Below, piece after piece: positions 47,957-56,780 of a stretch of DNA of 64,000 nt. The stretch covers positions 1 through 64,000 of the forward strand of contig JBBDQS010000136.1 in assembly GCA_040905805.1 (NCBI GenBank), read 5' to 3'. The stretch is from Egibacteraceae bacterium (GTDB taxonomy: Bacteria > Actinomycetota > Nitriliruptoria > Euzebyales > Egibacteraceae). The position numbers and the translations under genes are program-made. The notes beneath the pieces were generated by a model. That model saw only the letters and a program-made list of their open reading frames with translations. It was not told the DNA's origin and did not search any database. How positions within the stretch are numbered: position 1 is the first letter of the stretch; each line of letters begins with the position of its first letter.

Positions 47957-48004
47957 GGATGGCCCGCCCGGGCGGGGGGTGTGGGATGGTGTCCATGGCG
48001 CGGG

Positions 48005-48032
48005 TTGTAGCAGACAGGGGGGGGGGTAGGAT
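48005..48032 (+). promoter_or_regulatory. Promoter-like element with G10 tract in the spacer
   Basis: TTGTAG (48005-48010) and TAGGAT (48027-48032) are 16 bases apart, and the spacer ends in ten consecutive G residues (48017-48026) directly abutting the -10. It lies just upstream of the ArsC-like gene. The -35 match is weak. Confidence 0.4.
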
Positions 48033-48042
48033 CGTGCACCCG

Positions 48043-48411
48043 ATGGATGTCCAGCTGTTCGGTCACGCCAAGTCCAAGGCGACGCGCAGCGCGCAGCGCT
48101 TCTTCAGCGAGCGGCGCCTGCCGGTGCACTTCGTGGATGTGCGCAAGCGACACCCGGCGCCGGGGGAGCTGCGCCGGTGGGTCCAGCGGTTCGGCGTGGA
48201 GGGTGTCCTCGACACGGCGTCCAAGGCCTACGTGGAGCAGGGCCTGCGGTACGTATCGGCATCTGACGACGACTGGATCGAGCGGCTGTCGGCGGACCCG
48301 AGAGCCCTGGCCTTCCCCCTTGGCCGGTGCGGCACCGAGCTGACCGTGGGCGAAGACCCCGAGGGCTGGCAGCGGCTCGCGGATGCCGCGACGGGGCGTG
48401 CAGGACGCTGA
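48043..48411 (+). CDS. ArsC/Spx-family protein lacking the catalytic cysteine
   Basis: This 122-residue protein has the arsenate-reductase-like (ArsC/Spx) thioredoxin fold: the opening VQLFGHAKSKATRSAQRFF, then HFVDVRKRHPAPGEL and a C-terminal helix. The position of the ArsC catalytic Cys, in the loop after the first strand, is occupied by AKSKAT, and the only Cys (GRCG) is near residue 95. It is therefore unlikely to reduce arsenate in the classical way. Related Cys-less proteins occur in actinobacteria with unknown role. ATG 48043 or GTG 48034 may be the start. Confidence 0.8.
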   Translation: MDVQLFGHAKSKATRSAQRFFSERRLPVHFVDVRKRHPAPGELRRWVQRFGVEGVLDTASKAYVEQGLRYVSASDDDWIERLSADPRALAFPLGRCGTELTVGEDPEGWQRLADAATGRAGR

Positions 48412-48464
48412 CCGGGCCGGTGTGGTCAGCGCGGCGGGCAGCCCCCGCGGGTCAGCTCATGCGG

Positions 48465-48899
48465 TCAGCTCGTGATGACGGGCAGCTCGCTGTTTCGCGT
48501 CCAGTACTCGGCGACCTGCTGCAGGTGGGCAACCAGCCGTCGGCCGGAGGCCTTGCTCACGTAGGAGTTGGAGCCCAGTGCGTAGGCCGTGTCGATGTCC
48601 TCGCGCTGTCGGGAGGACGTCACCACGATCACCGGGATCGCCGCCAGCTCAGGATGTCCCTGCAACCGCTCCAGCACGTCGAAGCCGCTCGCCTTCGGCA
48701 TCTGCAGGTCGAGGAAGACCAGGTTGGGCGGTGCAGCGTGTGCGTGCGCCCCCCTGCCGAACAGCCAGTCGAGCGTCTCCTCGCCGTCGCGCGCCTCGAG
48801 GATCTCCGTGGACCCCTGCATGGTCCGACGCAGCGCGCGGACAGTCAGGTAGCGGTGGTCATCGTCGTCCTCGGCGACGAGCACGCGCAACGTCGTCAT
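48465..48899 (-). CDS. Single-domain (CheY/Rcp1-like) response regulator
   Basis: This 144-residue protein is a receiver domain only: acidic pocket AEDDDDHR at 9-16, the phosphoacceptor in LVFLDLQMPKASG, Ser/Thr in IVVTSS and Lys in YVSKASG. There is no DNA-binding domain, so it acts through protein contacts. The sequence after strand 3 resembles the Rcp1 type that pairs with phytochrome-like kinases. Its ATG overlaps the stop of the kinase gene (ATGA), so it is the kinase's partner. The divergent PP2C phosphatase and receiver-RsbW genes may be downstream in the same pathway. Confidence 0.92.
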   Translation of the reverse strand: MTTLRVLVAEDDDDHRYLTVRALRRTMQGSTEILEARDGEETLDWLFGRGAHAHAAPPNLVFLDLQMPKASGFDVLERLQGHPELAAIPVIVVTSSRQREDIDTAYALGSNSYVSKASGRRLVAHLQQVAEYWTRNSELPVITS

Positions 48900-50644
48900 G
48901 CGACCTCCCGGGGGTGGGCAGAGTCAGGCGTGACCGGCGGCAACTCTACCCGTACGTGGGTGCCCTCGTCGCTGTCGGTGATCCAGATCCTCCCGGCGGC
49001 GTGCTCGACGATGCGCCGGCACATGGCCAGCCCGATCCCCGTGCCGGTACCGGTCGCGTTCAGGCGCTGGAAGAGACCGAAGACCTTCTCCCGGTCGGCC
49101 GTGGGGATGCCGCGACCGTTGTCGGCGACGGTCACGCCACCGGGCGTGCCTGCCGGGCTCACCCGCACCGTGACGTCGGGCCGGCCACTGTGGACCAGGG
49201 CGTTGCTCAGCAGGTTGGCGAACAGCTGGTGCGCCCGGGTCGGATTCATCATGACCGTCGGCAGGACACCGACCTCCAGGGTGGCCTCGGGATGCTGGCG
49301 AGCGAGCTCCTCGCTCGCGTGGCGGACGACCGCGGTGAGGTCGACGGGTTGGGGCTCCTCGTCGACCTTGCCGACGCGTGACAGCTGCAGGAGGTCGCCG
49401 ATGAGCTCGTCCATGTGCTCCACGTTGCGGCGCAGCCGGGCGAGGAAGTGCGCGCCGTCGCCCTCCAGGACGAGCCCGTAGTCCTCCGCGAGGCAGTCGG
49501 CGTACCCGAGGACCGACACGATCGGGCGGCGCAGGTCGTGGGAGAGGCCGTACACGAGCGCCTCGAGCTCGGCGGCGCTCTCCTCGGCCTGCGCCCGCGC
49601 GGCCTTTTCGCGATCGAATGCCTCGCTGCGGGTCAGCGCCAGGTTCATCATGGTCCCCAGCCGACCGAGCAGCTCGAGCTCGTCCCTGCCGAACAGCGGC
49701 GTGACGGGGGTGACCATGACACCGAGCCGGCCGCCGCGAAGCTCCAGGATGACGAGGTCGTCGGTCTTGGTGACAGCCCCGGGCCCGGGCTCGTCCCGCG
49801 CCATCAGGCGCGCCCGGAGGGCATCGGGGATCGTGCCGTGGGAGAACTCCTCGCCGGACTCGTCCTGGAGGAGCACGGGTCGATCCCCGAGCATCCGGCT
49901 GACGTGGGGCAGCATGGAGGCCGCGATCTCCCGGCTCGTGACCGCAGCCATGAGATCGCCCTCGGCCCGCCACAGGGCCTGCTCGTCCTTGCGGCGCCAC
50001 GCCTGTCGCAGCAGCGCCGGCGGGGCGAAGGCGGCGTAGAAGAGCAGCGCGCTGATGAGCGCGCCGGCCTGGATGGTGGTGGTCAGCGCGGGTGGCGCCT
50101 CGGGGACGCTGAGACCAGCCAGGACCAGGGCGAGGTTCAGCATCGCCACCGCCAGCGCGAGGGTCCGCAGTCGCAGTCGCGCCACGTTGGACTGCGACCG
50201 GCTGGAGCGCCACAGCCGCCACACGACCCAGGACGACAGGAGGGTCCACATGACGAGGACGCCGGCGACGTAGAGCAGGTACCAGGTCGGTGGCGGGCCT
50301 TCAGTCGCTGGCGCGGAGACGACCACGGTGACGGCCAGGACCGCGCCGGCCAGGACGCCGGCCGCTGCCAGGATGCGTCGGCTGACGGGCTGGAAGGAGG
50401 CGGTGAAGCGGAACAACAGGTACGGGAAGGCGACCAGCAGCACCCGTTGCAGTCGCGCGAGGGTGGCACCGACGTCATCGGGCAGGAGCGGGGCGAGGCG
50501 CCCGGTGAACAGGGCGGCACCGAGGGCACCCAACGTCCACGCGAGCCAGGCGGTGGTCGGAGACCGGTTGCGCCACCACAGCCGCACCGCGGTCAGGCCC
50601 AGCAGCATGAACGCCACGGCGACGGCCAGCTGCAGGACATCCAT
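48896..50644 (-). CDS. Membrane sensor histidine kinase (7TM + GAF-like + HisKA + HATPase)
   Basis: This 582-residue kinase has about seven membrane segments in the first 215 residues and then a GAF-like domain (about 225-345). A HisKA domain has GLSHDLRRPIVSVLGY (the His in SHD is phosphorylated), and the HATPase_c domain shows ANLLSNALVHSG, VADNGRGIP and GTGIGLAM. ATG 50644 begins just before the first helix; an upstream ATG at 50716 was rejected. It is coupled to the single-domain regulator by an ATGA overlap and is divergent from the phosphatase gene across 145 bases. Confidence 0.92.
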   Translation of the reverse strand: MDVLQLAVAVAFMLLGLTAVRLWWRNRSPTTAWLAWTLGALGAALFTGRLAPLLPDDVGATLARLQRVLLVAFPYLLFRFTASFQPVSRRILAAAGVLAGAVLAVTVVVSAPATEGPPPTWYLLYVAGVLVMWTLLSSWVVWRLWRSSRSQSNVARLRLRTLALAVAMLNLALVLAGLSVPEAPPALTTTIQAGALISALLFYAAFAPPALLRQAWRRKDEQALWRAEGDLMAAVTSREIAASMLPHVSRMLGDRPVLLQDESGEEFSHGTIPDALRARLMARDEPGPGAVTKTDDLVILELRGGRLGVMVTPVTPLFGRDELELLGRLGTMMNLALTRSEAFDREKAARAQAEESAAELEALVYGLSHDLRRPIVSVLGYADCLAEDYGLVLEGDGAHFLARLRRNVEHMDELIGDLLQLSRVGKVDEEPQPVDLTAVVRHASEELARQHPEATLEVGVLPTVMMNPTRAHQLFANLLSNALVHSGRPDVTVRVSPAGTPGGVTVADNGRGIPTADREKVFGLFQRLNATGTGTGIGLAMCRRIVEHAAGRIWITDSDEGTHVRVELPPVTPDSAHPREVA

Positions 50645-50789
50645 CAGCGCGGTCCGTGACGAAGGGCTGGTATGGGCCGAGCGGATGCTACACAGGCGCC
50701 CCGGCACCGCAACCACTGTGTCCGTCCGGGCGGCCTCCGTGTGATACTGCGGGCGACATGAAGCGCGCCGGAGGGAGGTCGCAGCGCTG

Positions 50790-52691
50790 ATGGGAGCACG
50801 TCATCGCGCACGTGGTGCCGTGCCGCTCTCGCGCATCGAGCGCCTGCAGGAGCTGACCGCGGAGCTGTCCCGCGCGCCCACCGTCGCGGCCGTGACCGAT
50901 GTGGTGGTCACGACCATCACCGAGGAGCTCGGTGCGGGGTCTGCGCTGGTCGCGCTGCTGGAGGGTGACGACACGGCCACATTCGAGATCGTGCGGGCCG
51001 TCGGATATCTGCCCACGACCCTGGAGCAGTGGACGTCGTTCTCGATGGATGCCCCCCTGCCTGCCGGTGATGCCCTGCGGCGGGGCGCCATGGTGGTCTT
51101 CGAGTCCCTGGCCGACCGAGACCAGCAGTACCCGGCGTTGCGGGGGGTGCCCTCCGCCCACGAGGCGTGGGCGATCGTCCCCCTGATCGTCGACGGTGAG
51201 CCGGTGGGCATCGTGTCGTTCGGGTTCGCCAGCCCCCGGCGTCTGGTGGCCGCGGACCGCTCGTTCGTCCAAGCGGTGGTCGACCAGTGCGCGCAGGCTG
51301 TGCACCGGGCGCGGCTGTACGACGAGCAGCGCACGGTCGCCCGCCAGCGGGGCTTCCTCAACCGGGCAGGTGAGGCGTTCGCGGAGGCGAGCTCCTACCG
51401 GGACGTCCAGCAGCTGGTGGTGGAGCTCGCCACCCCGGAGCTGGGTGACGGGGCCGCCCTCTTCCTCGGTGTGCCCGGCGGGCTCAGCTCGGCGGCCTCC
51501 CGACACACCGACCCCGGTGCCGGTGCGGTGCTGAGCGGGCTCGACGGCGGGCGGGCGTTCACGGCCGATCCGCTGCTGCACGAGGTGTTCCGCACGGGGA
51601 CCCCCCGAACGCTGCGGACGGATGAGGCGCTGCCGGACCCAGCGGGTGCCGCCGGCCCTGCGGACAGGGCGGCGGGCGACCTGCTGGTGCTGCCGCTGCA
51701 GTCGCGCGTGTCCACGCTCGGCGTCCTGGTGCTGGTGCAGCGCGGGGCCGGCACCTCGGCCGCGTCTGACTGGTCGCTGGCCGAGAGCTACTGCTCGTTG
51801 GCGGGGTTGCACTGCGACAACGCCCGGTTGCTGGAGGAGCAGACGCGGATCGCCCAGTACCTGCAGGCAAGCCTCCTGCCCCCGATGCTGCCCCACATCC
51901 CGGGCCTGGAGGTCGCGACCGCCTACGTCGCGGGCGGGACGGGCGCGGACGTCGGCGGTGACTTCTACGACCTCTTCGACGCGGGGGAGGGACGGTGGGT
52001 CGCCGTCACCGGCGACGTGCGGGGCAGGGGCGTGGATGCCGCCGCGACGACGGGCCTGGCGCGCCACACGGTTCGGGCCGCCGCCGTGCCGCGGGCCGAC
52101 CCGAGCGCGGTCGTCAGGCGCCTGAACGAGGTGCTGCTCGCACACGAGCCCCTGGGTCTGGAGCCGCGGTTCTGCGCCGTGTGCCTCATGGCCTGCTCGC
52201 TCACCAGCGCCGGAGCGACCATCACGGTGTGCTGCGCCGGGCATCCGCTCCCGTGGCTGGTGCGGGCGGACGGTGTCGCCAGGGAGGTCGGCGTGCCGGG
52301 GACGGTCGCCGGCGTGGTCGCCGACCCCGATCTGGCGGACGAGACGATCGTGCTCGGTGCGGGGGACACGCTGGTGGCCTTCACCGACGGGATCAGCGAG
52401 CGGCGTTGTGAGGGCGTGTTCTTCGAGGACCTGCTGGCCACGGTGCTGTCGGGCACCGCCGACCTCGACGTGCGGGCCGTCGCCGCTCGGGTCCGTGACC
52501 AGGCCACCGCGTTCGGCGCCGAGGAACCCGACGACGACATGGCCGTGCTCGTGCTCCGCGTCGCGGGACGGGCGCCGCCCGCTGGCCGGCCCGCGACGAT
52601 CGGCGAGCGCCTGGACGAGACCGGCTCCGCGGCAGGGACCGTGCTGCCACGCGCCGTCAGGAGCAGCATGCCGGTCGAGGGCAGGCCGTAG
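50790..52691 (+). CDS. GAF-GAF-PP2C serine phosphatase (RsbU/SpoIIE type)
   Basis: This 633-residue protein has two GAF sensor domains (about 30-175 and 190-350) and a SpoIIE/PP2C phosphatase domain (about 360-590). The catalytic metal motifs are GGDFYDLF, GDVRGRGVDAA and the late DGISER and DDDMAVLVL. Proteins of this kind dephosphorylate an anti-sigma antagonist and so release a stress sigma factor. ATG 50790 follows a GATACT hexamer (50743) that could be a -10. Its stop directly abuts the ATG of the receiver-RsbW gene (52691/52692). Confidence 0.92.
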   Translation: MGARHRARGAVPLSRIERLQELTAELSRAPTVAAVTDVVVTTITEELGAGSALVALLEGDDTATFEIVRAVGYLPTTLEQWTSFSMDAPLPAGDALRRGAMVVFESLADRDQQYPALRGVPSAHEAWAIVPLIVDGEPVGIVSFGFASPRRLVAADRSFVQAVVDQCAQAVHRARLYDEQRTVARQRGFLNRAGEAFAEASSYRDVQQLVVELATPELGDGAALFLGVPGGLSSAASRHTDPGAGAVLSGLDGGRAFTADPLLHEVFRTGTPRTLRTDEALPDPAGAAGPADRAAGDLLVLPLQSRVSTLGVLVLVQRGAGTSAASDWSLAESYCSLAGLHCDNARLLEEQTRIAQYLQASLLPPMLPHIPGLEVATAYVAGGTGADVGGDFYDLFDAGEGRWVAVTGDVRGRGVDAAATTGLARHTVRAAAVPRADPSAVVRRLNEVLLAHEPLGLEPRFCAVCLMACSLTSAGATITVCCAGHPLPWLVRADGVAREVGVPGTVAGVVADPDLADETIVLGAGDTLVAFTDGISERRCEGVFFEDLLATVLSGTADLDVRAVAARVRDQATAFGAEEPDDDMAVLVLRVAGRAPPAGRPATIGERLDETGSAAGTVLPRAVRSSMPVEGRP

Positions 52692-53513
52692 ATGGCCACC
52701 CCCCCGTACCGGGTGCTGCTGGTGGACGACGACACCGACGTGCGCACGCTCGCGCGCCGTCACCTCGAGCGGTCCGGCGACTTCTCGGTGATCGCCGAGG
52801 CCGCCGATGGGGACGAGGCGACCAGGGTGGCGGCGGCTCACCAGCCCGACGTCGCCCTCCTCGACCTGAACATGCCCGGCACGGACGGCTTGACGGCGCT
52901 GCCCCGCATCCGGGCGGTGGCGCCGCAGTGCACGGTCGTCGTCCTGTCCGCCATGCAGCGGCCCGAGGCGGAGGAGCAGGCCAAGGCTGCGGGGGCGAGC
53001 GGCTTCCTGGTCAAGCAACGATCGTGGCGCGCTCTGCCGGCTGACCTGATGGACGTGCTGCACCGAGCAGAGGACGCGTCGCCCCACGACACGGGTGTTG
53101 AGCTGCCCGCCTCGCTGACCAGCGGCCGGGAGGCCCGCCGGTTCCTTCGGGCAACGTTGCCCGGCTGGGGTGCGGAAGACCTGCTCGACGATGCGCAGCT
53201 GCTCACCAGCGAGCTGGTCAACAACGCCATCGTGCACGCGTCGTCCGCGGTGCGCGTGCGGCTGCGGTTCGCGGACCGCTGCCTGCGGATCGAGGTCACC
53301 GACGCGGGCGCCGGCGCCCTGCAGCGCCAGCCGGGCAGGCGGGGCGACACCAGCGGTCGCGGGCTGCACCTCGTGGACGTGCTCGCCGCCTCATGGGGCA
53401 CCTCGGCGGACCGGGACGGCAAGGTGGTGTGGTTCGAGCTGGAGGAGCAGGCTGCGGCGGAACCCGGGCACGGGGCAAGCCCGTCCGCGGGTCGTGACGG
53501 GGCGCGCGAGTGA
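52692..53513 (+). CDS. Receiver domain fused to RsbW-type anti-sigma (HATPase) domain
   Basis: This 273-residue protein joins two domains rarely seen together. Residues 1-120 are a receiver: VDDD at 11-14, phosphoacceptor D58 in LLDLNMPG and the Lys in FLVKQRS. Residues about 135-255 are a HATPase_c_2 domain of the RsbW/SpoIIAB kind, with the N-box LTSELVNNAIVHAS, VTDAGAG and GRGLHLVDVLAA. It could let a two-component phosphorelay control a partner-switching anti-sigma kinase. The gene starts one base after the phosphatase stop, so the phosphatase and this protein are expressed together. No STAS antagonist is in the window. Confidence 0.9.
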   Translation: MATPPYRVLLVDDDTDVRTLARRHLERSGDFSVIAEAADGDEATRVAAAHQPDVALLDLNMPGTDGLTALPRIRAVAPQCTVVVLSAMQRPEAEEQAKAAGASGFLVKQRSWRALPADLMDVLHRAEDASPHDTGVELPASLTSGREARRFLRATLPGWGAEDLLDDAQLLTSELVNNAIVHASSAVRVRLRFADRCLRIEVTDAGAGALQRQPGRRGDTSGRGLHLVDVLAASWGTSADRDGKVVWFELEEQAAAEPGHGASPSAGRDGARE

Positions 53514-53538
53514 CGCCGGTGGGTCAGGACGGCGGGTC

Positions 53539-54384
53539 GTGCTCGATGCGGTGATGCCCTACCTGCGGTGCCCGTATTGCGCCGGCGATCTGGACCGGGA
53601 GGGTGGCGTCGTGCGGTGCACCGACGCGCACGCCTTCGACATCGCTCGGCAGGGCTACGTCAACCTGCTCGGGGCGCAGCCCGCGGTCGGCACCGGTGAC
53701 GGCCCGGACATGGTGGCGGCGCGGGAACGGTTCCTCTGCGCCGGACACTACTCGGCCCTGGCCGACGTGGTGGCCGCAGCGTGCGCCGGCGGGGTCGGTG
53801 ACGCGGGGCCCGGGTGTGTGGCGGACGTCGGTGCCGGGACGGGCTATTACCTGCGGCGGGTCGTCGAGCGGCTGCCGGACCGCGCGGGGCTGGCCCTGGA
53901 CCTCTCCCGGTACGCGCTGCGCAGGGCGGCGCGGGCTCACCCGCGCATCGGTGCGGTGGCCTGCGACGTGTGGCAGTCACTGCCGGTCCGCGGCGGCGCG
54001 GTGGTCGCGGCGCTCGGGGTGTTCGCGCCCCGCAACGGCGCCGAGATCCGGCGGGTGCTCGCGCCGGGCGGGGTGCTGGTGGTCGTGACCCCCACGGCCC
54101 GCCATCTGGTCGAGCTCGTCGAGCCGCTGGGCATGTTGACCGTGGACGCGCGCAAGGACGAGCGTCTGCGGATGCATCTGGGGCCCCACCTGGCCGCGGG
54201 CGCTCGCACCACCGTCGAGATAGCGCTCACGCTCGACCGGGACGCCGTCACGGACCTGGTGACCATGAGCCCCACAGCCTGGCACACCCCTTCAGAGGTG
54301 ACCGTCCGCCGGGTCGCCGCGCTGTCCCAGCCCATCTCGGTGACGGCCTCCTTCGTCGTGTCGGTGTTCCATGGAGGGCGGTGA
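53539..54384 (+). CDS. 23S rRNA (guanine-N1)-methyltransferase-like, RlmA/TlrB family
   Basis: This 281-residue protein starts with a zinc site (C11, C14, C27, H31, in CPYC and CTDAH). A conserved RQGYVNLL stretch follows, then a class I SAM domain with VADVGAGTGYYL and a late region ARTTVEIALTLDR. This matches RlmA(I)/(II) enzymes, which modify G745/G748 of 23S rRNA; the II type is also a macrolide-resistance determinant in Streptomyces. GTG 53539 has AGGA about nine bases upstream; GTG 53551 and ATG 53554 are alternatives. The stop overlaps a downstream GTG at 54381. Confidence 0.86.
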   Translation: MLDAVMPYLRCPYCAGDLDREGGVVRCTDAHAFDIARQGYVNLLGAQPAVGTGDGPDMVAARERFLCAGHYSALADVVAAACAGGVGDAGPGCVADVGAGTGYYLRRVVERLPDRAGLALDLSRYALRRAARAHPRIGAVACDVWQSLPVRGGAVVAALGVFAPRNGAEIRRVLAPGGVLVVVTPTARHLVELVEPLGMLTVDARKDERLRMHLGPHLAAGARTTVEIALTLDRDAVTDLVTMSPTAWHTPSEVTVRRVAALSQPISVTASFVVSVFHGGR

Positions 54385-55281: not shown

Positions 55282-55617
55282 TCAGGCCGCTGCGCGCGCT
55301 GCGCGCTGTGCGGGCACGGCCGGAGCCGCCGGCGTCTCCGCGCGGTGGGCGATCGCGTCCACGATGGCGCGGGTGAACTCGCCGATGGCGACGAGGACGA
55401 GGCCGGTCACGACCGGGTGCATCCACTCGGCGCGCAGCTCCTGGCCGAAGGCCGTGAAGGCCGAGTAGCCGAGCATCCACGCGAGACCGGCGGCCACGGC
55501 GATCGTGACCACGCGGGTGAGCGGGGCGGGGACGGTGACGGGAGCGAGCTCGTCGAGGGCCTGGCGAACGACGGACAGACCCAGCGCGAGCGCGACGAGG
55601 ACGAGGAAGGCGTACAT
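55282..55617 (-). CDS. Three-helix membrane protein, unknown
   Basis: This 111-residue protein has predicted membrane segments at about 1-20, 35-57 and 65-90 and an Ala/Pro-rich polar tail. There is no family motif I can name. ATG 55617 has AGGAG seven bases upstream. The longer frame upstream is antisense to the sigma factor gene. It is divergent from that gene with a 105-base spacer. Confidence 0.75.
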   Translation of the reverse strand: MYAFLVLVALALGLSVVRQALDELAPVTVPAPLTRVVTIAVAAGLAWMLGYSAFTAFGQELRAEWMHPVVTGLVLVAIGEFTRAIVDAIAHRAETPAAPAVPAQRAARAAA

Positions 55618-55722
55618 TGCACCACTCCTGACGGTCGGGCCGGCGAGGCTGTCTGCCTCGCTCACCGGGTTGGACCGCCGCGGACCGCGATCGGTTACAT
55701 CGCCCGCGCGGCTGCCGCGACA

Positions 55723-56292
55723 ATGGCAACCGTGGACGTCGACCCGGAGCTGGTGCGTGCGGTGCAGCGCGGTGCGCCCGGCGCCATGGACGCGCTCATC
55801 CGCGCCACCTACACCAACGTCTACGCGCTCTGCCGCCGCCTGCTCGGCGACCCGGCCGACGCCGCGGACGCGACTCAGGAGGTGTACGTGCGGGTGGTGC
55901 GGTCGGTGCTCGGCTTCCGCGGTGAGGCCGCCTTCGGCACGTGGCTGCACCGGGTCACCCTGAACGTGTGCGCGACCGCGCTCCGCCGCCGCGGGGACGT
56001 CCGGGCCCGCGGGCAGGCGGCGGGGGCGAGTGCGTTCGCGGCACCGGGGTCGGCTGACGTGCTCGCCTCACCCGACGACACCGAGGAGCGGGTGGCCGTG
56101 CTCGACCAGGCCCGCCGCATCGCCGACGCCATCGCGGCGCTTCCCGCGGCCGCCCGGGCGGTCGTGGTGCTCCGCGACGTGCAGGGGTTGTCCACGAAGG
56201 AGGCAGCCGCCATGCTCGGCATCAGCGAGTCCGCGGTGAAGGTGCGCCTGCACCGCGCTCACGCCAAGCTCCGGGAGCAGGTGGCACCGTGA
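55723..56292 (+). CDS. ECF-family RNA polymerase sigma factor
   Basis: This 189-residue sigma factor has region 2 (about 25-95: YALCRRLLGDPADAADATQEVYVRVVR and the FGTWLHRVTLN stretch) and region 4 (about 130-185: LPAAARAVVVLRDVQGLSTKEAA and SESAVKVRLHRA). There is no region 3. Its stop overlaps the GTG of the anti-sigma gene (GTGA), the classical arrangement. ATG 55723 has a weak ribosome site; GTG 55732 is an alternative. It probably responds to envelope or redox stress. Confidence 0.93.
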   Translation: MATVDVDPELVRAVQRGAPGAMDALIRATYTNVYALCRRLLGDPADAADATQEVYVRVVRSVLGFRGEAAFGTWLHRVTLNVCATALRRRGDVRARGQAAGASAFAAPGSADVLASPDDTEERVAVLDQARRIADAIAALPAAARAVVVLRDVQGLSTKEAAAMLGISESAVKVRLHRAHAKLREQVAP

Positions 56293-56780
56293 GGGAGGCA
56301 ACGCGCGTGGGGCGGATCTGCCAGGAGGTGCAGGCGCACCTCCCGGGCCTCGTGGACGGCACGCTGGGGGCGGGTCGGCGGCGGCTCGTCAGCGTCCATC
56401 TCCGCCGGTGCCCCGTCTGCCGTGAGGAGCACGACCGGCAGCATGCGGTGGCCGCGGGCCTCGACCGGCTCGGGACGGCGGCCGCCGAGGATCCGGTCAT
56501 GCCGCCCGACGAGCTGCTCGACGAGCTGCTCGCACAGGCCCGGCGACCCGGCGTGCGGGGACGGGCGGCCGTTCCCGCACGGGGCGCGGTGAGCGGAGCC
56601 CGGCCGGCCCTGTCCGTGGCACTGCTCGCGGCGGGCGCCGTGGCGGGCACTGCTGCCGGCTACGCCGGCTGGCGGGGGATGCGCACGGTCAGCGGGGCGA
56701 TGGGCCACCGGAGGCGGGGAACGCGGGGTGCCGGCCGGGGACGTGGACGTGGCAGCGGTCGCCGGGGAGCAGGTCGGTGA
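56289..56780 (+). CDS. Zinc-binding (ZAS) membrane anti-sigma factor
   Basis: This 163-residue protein carries the zinc anti-sigma motif HxxxCxxC (H37, C41, C44) plus an upstream C11. One membrane segment lies at about 100-120. A Gly/Arg-rich basic tail follows. It should sequester the preceding ECF sigma factor and release it on a signal. GTG 56289 overlaps the sigma stop. The stop is two bases from the convergent ChdC stop. The long Gly-Arg tail is unusual for the family. Confidence 0.9.
   Translation: MREATRVGRICQEVQAHLPGLVDGTLGAGRRRLVSVHLRRCPVCREEHDRQHAVAAGLDRLGTAAAEDPVMPPDELLDELLAQARRPGVRGRAAVPARGAVSGARPALSVALLAAGAVAGTAAGYAGWRGMRTVSGAMGHRRRGTRGAGRGRGRGSGRRGAGR

Follow-up and report, generated by a model that had tools for sequence, protein, structure and literature searches.

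Where two-component signalling and partner switching are combined, the two usually meet at the phosphatase (e.g. RsfR, RsbY) or in a three-domain protein (HsbR, CrsR, SypE). In another design, represented by TciR and LvrC, a receiver domain is joined to an RsbW-like ATPase. Here we describe a gene of this latter kind, a receiver-HATPase_c_2 fusion that lies within positions 48,465-53,513 of a 64,000-nucleotide window (G000:C136:1-64000; the whole stretch of DNA that was analysed) from an Egibacteraceae genome (G000; 3.6 Mb, 166 contigs, 95% complete, ∼72% G+C). The gene directly follows that of a GAF-GAF-PP2C phosphatase, so that in this cluster the meeting point would be the kinase, with the phosphatase remaining a separate GAF-sensing gene. 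If this is true, the cluster would offer a simple two-gene system for how aspartate phosphorylation controls an RsbW-fold serine kinase, a question shared with TciR and LvrC.

According to the excerpts of the literature drawn on here, LvrC of Leptospira interrogans (PDB 9QIH), which was reported in 2026 with a structure and phosphotransfer, has the same order of domains as the fusion, i.e. an N-terminal receiver and then directly a Bergerat domain of the RsbW/SpoIIAB fold (PMC13269768). It differs from the fusion in coming from a spirochaete and in being fed by LvrB, a receiver-controlled histidine kinase, and the excerpt of that report mentions no phosphatase partner. In structural alignments the ATPase domains of LvrC and the fusion are about 17-21% identical. 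TciR of Vogesella indigofera, the partner of the histidine kinase TciK, likewise combines a receiver with an RsbW-like domain (PMC12826045). Likened to the fusion by description alone, it differs in being proteobacterial, its host is said to be without RsbV, and no opposing phosphatase is mentioned in the excerpt cited. The authors of that study retrieved 100 receiver-RsbW-like proteins (74 from Proteobacteria, 13 from Planctomycetes, 5 from Spirochetes and the remainder from other groups), none of which had, to their knowledge, been functionally characterised before (PMC12826045).

Three-domain proteins and the mycobacterial SigF switch share other parts of the design. HsbR of Pseudomonas aeruginosa and CrsR of Shewanella oneidensis resemble the window cluster in bringing a receiver, a PP2C domain and a kinase/anti-sigma domain to bear on one STAS-type antagonist, but all three domains are in one polypeptide (PMC6482189). 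SypE of Vibrio fischeri, in which an RsbW-like kinase, a receiver and a PP2C domain control a STAS protein, is also a single polypeptide, with the receiver central (as described in PMC12826045). In the window, by comparison, phosphatase and kinase are encoded by separate genes with a TAG|ATG junction, the receiver is on the kinase only, and the phosphatase carries GAF domains. In Mycobacterium smegmatis, RsfS/RsfR with RsbW2 and RsfB form an actinobacterial SigF switch that, like the window case, has a histidine kinase, a PP2C phosphatase and a separate RsbW-type kinase encoded close together, as well as a distinct anti-sigma factor, RsbW1 (PMC10950880, PMC7693655); RsbW1 binds SigF and RsbW2 solely phosphorylates RsfB (PMC7693655). 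In that switch it is the phosphatase, RsfR, that carries the receiver (PMC10950880), whereas in the window the receiver is on the kinase; the window phosphatase has no receiver match in Pfam and is hence not of the receiver-PP2C type of RsfR and RsbY. Lastly, Streptomyces PP2C-HATPase_c_2 proteins (annotated as 'ATP-binding SpoIIE family protein phosphatase') are among the closest HATPase sequences listed and also link a phosphatase to a kinase, but with the domains fused together and, in the proteins found, without a receiver.

The fusion has the layout of TciR and LvrC, with an N-terminal receiver, an RsbW-fold domain directly after it and no DHp/HisKA domain. Its architecture is therefore not new, since proteins of the same design have been published. 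What is new here is the actinobacterial form, the pairing with a separate phosphatase and the rarity (intact in two of 66 genomes of the class). Full-text searches of open-licence papers turned up no account of a receiver-HATPase_c_2 gene that is coupled to its own GAF-PP2C gene.

A reading made earlier from the letters alone (hereafter the sequence-only reading) had placed four genes with named domains in this interval, and open reading frames (ORFs) together with Pfam searches bear this out. The features are:

48465-48899, minus strand: single-domain response regulator of 144 amino acids (Pfam PF00072 Response_reg, 3.7e-18)
48896-50644, minus strand: membrane histidine kinase (Pfam HisKA 2.5e-11, HATPase_c 1.5e-23)
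50790-52691, plus strand: GAF-GAF-PP2C (SpoIIE family) phosphatase of 633 amino acids (Pfam SpoIIE 9.7e-36, GAF_2 2.8e-19, GAF_3 5.6e-9)
52692-53513, plus strand: receiver-HATPase_c_2 fusion of 273 amino acids (Pfam, AlphaFold2, Foldseek)
52713-53030, plus strand: receiver domain of the fusion, residues 8-113 (Pfam Response_reg, 2e-24)
53103-53435, plus strand: HATPase_c_2 domain of the fusion, residues 138-248 (Pfam, 2e-11)
52677-52694, plus strand: putative ribosome-binding stretch within the last codons of the phosphatase gene, up to the TAG-ATG junction (read from the sequence)
48412-53538, no strand: block absent from a genome of the same genus, G001, between the same flanking genes (same-genus comparison)

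The position of the fusion gene directly behind the phosphatase gene, also part of that reading, holds to the letter: TAG is followed by ATG with zero gap. This junction, together with the possible ribosome-binding stretch, makes it probable that the two genes are translationally coupled. The regulator and histidine kinase genes overlap by 4 bp (ATGA). The kinase most likely starts at the ATG at 50644, while an alternative GTG at 50716 opens the longest ORF; the phosphatase has an alternative start at 50820. Third-position G+C is 90-91% in all four genes and 94% in two neighbouring genes, and this closeness argues that the four frames are not chance.

The gene structure, the domains, the intact catalytic and phospho-acceptor residues, the predicted fold and the inventory of partners are best explained, with a probability of roughly one half, by a serine kinase that has the RsbW/SpoIIAB fold, is gated by its receiver and opposes the coupled GAF-GAF-PP2C phosphatase on a STAS protein encoded elsewhere. 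The fusion would phosphorylate a STAS anti-anti-sigma protein, most likely the RsbV encoded on contig C135, and the phosphatase would oppose it on the same RsbV. Aspartate phosphorylation of the receiver, by whichever histidine kinase feeds it, would alter the kinase arm, and ligands sensed by the GAF domains would alter the phosphatase arm; the state of RsbV would then decide the release of a SigB/F-type sigma factor (contig C107), and with it a putative regulon, from its own kinase-dead anti-sigma protein. Phosphorylation of D58 might push the kinase in either direction: HsbR acts as a kinase when unphosphorylated (PMC6482189), and in LvrC the receiver is thought to be released upon phosphorylation (PMC13269768). 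We suggest more tentatively, as a possibility we would rate somewhat below an even chance, that this is a push-pull switch, in which the receiver sets the kinase arm and GAF ligands the phosphatase arm, and that the coupled plug-in unit, gained or lost as a block, retunes a resident SigB/F-type stress response via a distant STAS protein.

Both domains of the fusion keep their key residues. The receiver retains D12, D13, D58, S86 and K108, with D58 in the phospho-acceptor position. The ATPase retains the N, G1 and G2 boxes (E174/N178, D204-x-G206-x-G208 and G222-R-G224) and also R149. The N, G1 and G2 residues are invariant across all three intact fusions (one in G000, two in the class genome G014), and the G1 glycines are lost in several stand-alone HATPase relatives.

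The AlphaFold2 model of the fusion has a mean predicted local distance difference test score (pLDDT) of 90.1, and that of the ATPase alone 91.1; between the last receiver helix, which ends at residue 127, and the first ATPase strand, which begins at 132, there is no room for a dimerisation/His-phosphotransfer domain. With the whole model, the top Foldseek match in the PDB was LvrC (E 1.6e-12), at a root-mean-square deviation (rmsd) of 18, from which it follows that the two domains are arranged differently in the two proteins. With the ATPase alone, RsbW (5.0e-7), SpoIIAB (5.3e-7), UsfX (3.8e-6), LvrC (9.2e-6) and Rv1364c (2.8e-4) were found, and the first histidine kinase came behind them at 9.4e-4. 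VIA Z scores for the ATPase model gave a similar picture, with SpoIIAB at 16.4 (121 aligned, rmsd 2.7), RsbW at 16.3 (109 aligned, rmsd 2.1), Rv1364c at 15.6, UsfX at 15.4, LvrC at 13.8, SiaB at 12.6 and histidine kinases at 9.1 or below; the same search with the whole fusion model returned matches that were all receiver domains and is uninformative on the ATPase. By structure match, the domain is the RsbW/SpoIIAB variant of the Bergerat fold, including the N-terminal strand and helix.

At the level of sequence, phmmer with the ATPase alone gave just two weak DevS-like matches, and a profile of 16 ATPase relatives matches RsbW at 8.8e-17. In the profile alignment, SpoIIAB R20, E46 and N50 align to R149, E174 and N178 of the fusion. 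E46 is the catalytic base of SpoIIAB, N50 a Mg2+ ligand, and R20 and K41 are sigma contacts (PMC10345196); in RsbW, Glu49 is the residue that meets RsbV Ser56 (PMC7340262). At the K41 position (K44 in RsbW, also an RsbV contact) the window fusion has Q169 and the G014 fusions have L or A, whereas the RsbW-like proteins of the genome have K or R.

A whole-genome search with STAS models matched three places, all on other contigs, in agreement with the sequence-only reading that no STAS antagonist is present in the window. On C135, a STAS protein (RsbV) with the DSTG serine is encoded next to its own RsbW, and its gene is the only STAS gene found in G000 that keeps this serine. The match on C109 is, as read by eye, part of a SulP-like transporter. 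The third, on C85 (L026 1444-1968), has alanine for the phosphorylatable serine (DAAG), and its flanking genes look GAF/ANTAR-like by eye. As the genome is ∼95% complete, the assembly may lack an additional STAS gene. Sigma region 3 models match six places; on C107 there is a 253-amino-acid SigB/F-type sigma factor with regions 2, 3 and 4, and its gene overlaps a small HATPase-like gene that is without the N, G1 and G2 residues (kinase-dead). This layout, with a kinase-dead anti-sigma gene beside the sigma gene and a single RsbV-RsbW pair, is similar to the control of SigF in M. smegmatis, as far as the excerpts cited above describe it.

The window phosphatase carries the Asp-rich motifs of the PP2C site, which we take to be its metal-site motifs. 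Ten PP2C/SpoIIE places were found in G000, three of them HATPase_c_2-linked (in the same gene on C14 and C16, in the adjacent gene at the window locus). Three phosphatase relatives were examined, of which the one in G011 (L236) adjoins a HATPase-PP2C fusion. As a side observation, ten PP2C/SpoIIE places stand against one STAS gene found with an intact serine, and a single anti-anti-sigma factor may thus be the common target of many phosphatases.

Several observations weigh against a kinase of this kind acting on a distant RsbV. The canonical RsbV is already paired with its own RsbW, a STAS gene is absent from the window and from the G014 fusion neighbourhoods, and the two G014 fusions are without an adjacent phosphatase. 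Q169 at the K41 position means that recognition of RsbV or sigma may differ. Furthermore, the ATPase falls below the curated equivalog cut-offs for RsbW (NF003144; 10.9 against 145 bits) and SpoIIAB (TIGR01925; 20.4 against 135 bits), so the fusion is not a canonical member of either family. The RsbW of the same genome is also under both cut-offs (74.2 and 44.4 bits), but is matched over its whole length. Thus, the fusion is predicted to work like an RsbW-type kinase without canonical membership, and of the label 'RsbW-type anti-sigma kinase' in the sequence-only reading, the fold and the kinase motifs stand while the anti-sigma membership was overstated.

That reading and the authors of LvrC favour a different role, in which a protein of this design is a receiver-controlled anti-sigma factor that binds sigma directly and frees it once the receiver is phosphorylated (proposed for LvrC in the excerpt of PMC13269768). 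The alignment of R149 with SpoIIAB R20, which mediates sigma contact, and the fold match to SpoIIAB and RsbW would suit such a role. However, we consider it unlikely for the fusion: the window is without a SigB/F-type sigma factor, the one SigB/F-type sigma gene of the genome already overlaps an anti-sigma-like gene, the second sigma-contact position is not kept (Q169), and the kinase-competent RsbW2 of M. smegmatis does not bind SigF (PMC7693655, as excerpted). Sigma binding in G000 is more likely to be the task of the kinase-dead, RsbW1/UsfX-like C107 protein than of the fusion. The proposed bridge between two-component signalling and partner switching remains plausible, given that the fusion couples a receiver to an ATPase which has the RsbW/SpoIIAB fold and the kinase motifs.

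The distribution of the fusion was surveyed in 66 genomes of the class and in 396 genomes sampled evenly across the phylum, a set which overlaps that of the class and in which six candidates were scored per genome, so that its counts are lower bounds. Intact full-length fusions are present in two of the 66 class genomes, G000 (one) and G014 (two), and the G014 copies are 47-48% identical to the window fusion with the catalytic residues common to all. In G004, matches to the two halves lie at the ends of two contigs (L071, L070), which makes it a probable third genome. Among the 80 loci listed from a scan of genome contigs, one, L128, is a full-length fusion, and in a plasmid collection no protein combined the two domains (none of 75 matching records covers at least 80% of the query). 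The phylum sample added at least two rows spanning both domains. In G183 (L110 3954-6958, G183:C10), a receiver-HATPase_c_2 gene is interrupted by an in-frame TAG; it lies directly behind a gene for an extracytoplasmic function (ECF) sigma factor, which is flanked by two RskA-like anti-sigma genes. In G108 (L111 4061-7087, G108:C212), a run of genes on one strand encodes STAS, a PAS-PAS histidine kinase, a regulator, HATPase_c_2 and STAS, the regulator and ATPase being separate genes. This run is an unfused version of the same two-component/partner-switch idea. Upstream of it, at L111 6-1754, is a relative of the window histidine kinase (30% identical over 504 amino acids).

These neighbourhoods bear on whether the ATPase targets RsbV at all. 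It could act on neither RsbV nor sigma, as in switches of the SypE/SypA or SiaB/SiaC type, for instance on a STAS-like partner missed by STAS models. One of the structural matches is SiaB (Z 12.6), the TciR host is said to be without an RsbV homologue (PMC12826045, as excerpted), and the three intact fusions are in unrelated neighbourhoods, one of the G014 copies being beside hut-like genes and the other beside a MEDS-HATPase protein. We regard such a target as improbable, given that G000 has the complete canonical set (RsbV, RsbW, anti-sigma and sigma) and that the unfused G108 operon pairs its regulator and HATPase with STAS genes. The rarity of intact fusions (two of 66) and the interrupting TAG in G183 also raise the question of whether the fusion is decayed or accidental and its protein non-functional. 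This is very unlikely in view of the confident two-domain AlphaFold2 model and of catalytic residues that are intact in the window fusion and both G014 copies; at 47-48% identity, their conservation argues for selection on both domains.

Serious consideration, at a little under even odds, is due to a further arrangement, in which the kinase-regulator pair and the phosphatase-fusion pair are unrelated neighbouring modules, with the fusion receiver fed by another kinase or left unphosphorylated. It is compatible with the other readings, including the RsbV-directed kinase that we prefer. A search of 61 genomes found relatives of the N-terminal region of the histidine kinase in 15, G000 included, and 24 places were listed, among them the gene itself. 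Twelve of these relatives, the gene itself excluded, were examined, mostly with 1.5 kb visible on each flank; within those flanks none has a HATPase_c_2 or PP2C gene beside it and three (L117, L119, L122) adjoin the same kind of single-domain regulator. The window regulator, which is Rcp1-like, shares 50% identity with the one that adjoins the G014 relative of the kinase; the fusion receiver is just 38% identical to the window regulator. The adjacent histidine kinase thus probably has its own regulator, which weakens the circuit of the sequence-only reading. On the other side, the G108 stretch with the STAS/regulator/HATPase run begins with a relative of the window kinase, and in the same genus all four genes are missing together from the matching place, which suggests joint gain or loss.

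In G001, of the same genus, ∼62 bp separate the ArsC-like gene from a decayed methyltransferase gene, and this interval contains none of the four genes. In this comparison, the block is therefore present or absent as a whole. The absence could be a loss, since the adjoining methyltransferase is itself decayed there, and a gain is not proven because other genera carry different genes at that place. Repeats in and around the block are short, imperfect ones only.

A tree of 46 ATPase domains placed the window fusion, with poor resolution, among PP2C-linked and stand-alone actinobacterial domains and outside the canonical RsbW-like rows, which are separate; the bootstrap had not settled. A single origin of receiver-HATPase fusions was sought in this tree, but the fused rows were not resolved and the number of fusion events was not decided. 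An origin independent of TciR and LvrC is possible, since the closest HATPase relatives are actinobacterial, PP2C-linked and stand-alone. The fusion was also considered as a hybrid histidine kinase or a receiver-controlled kinase of the LvrB type; this was rejected, as there is no HisKA/DHp domain between receiver and ATPase (by Pfam, and with few linker residues in the model). Longer receiver-plus-ATPase proteins of relatives (e.g. L035, L051, L085 and L094, ∼360-380 amino acids) were not counted as fusions, being judged receiver-controlled histidine kinases by their length, ATPase position and weak match.

The left edge of the block is an ArsC/Spx-like gene (47959-48411), whose protein has weak matches to Spx/MgsR and ArsC models. 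The right edge is a gene for an RlmA-like 23S rRNA methyltransferase that starts at about 53539 (53539-54384), near the Erm(32)/ChrB/MyrA models with scores far under the cut-offs; in G001 it is reduced to remnants (L256 about 1500-1726). About 2 kb downstream of the cluster is a gene for an ECF sigma factor, with Pfam matches to regions 2 and 4. This factor had been weighed as a partner of the fusion, as the interrupted copy in G183 is likewise preceded by genes for an ECF sigma factor and its anti-sigma factor, and was dropped since in G001 the ECF sigma/anti-sigma pair is on a different contig from the rest of this neighbourhood. In the window, a zinc-type anti-sigma-like ORF, read by eye, adjoins the ECF sigma gene, and the two together span 55345-56780.

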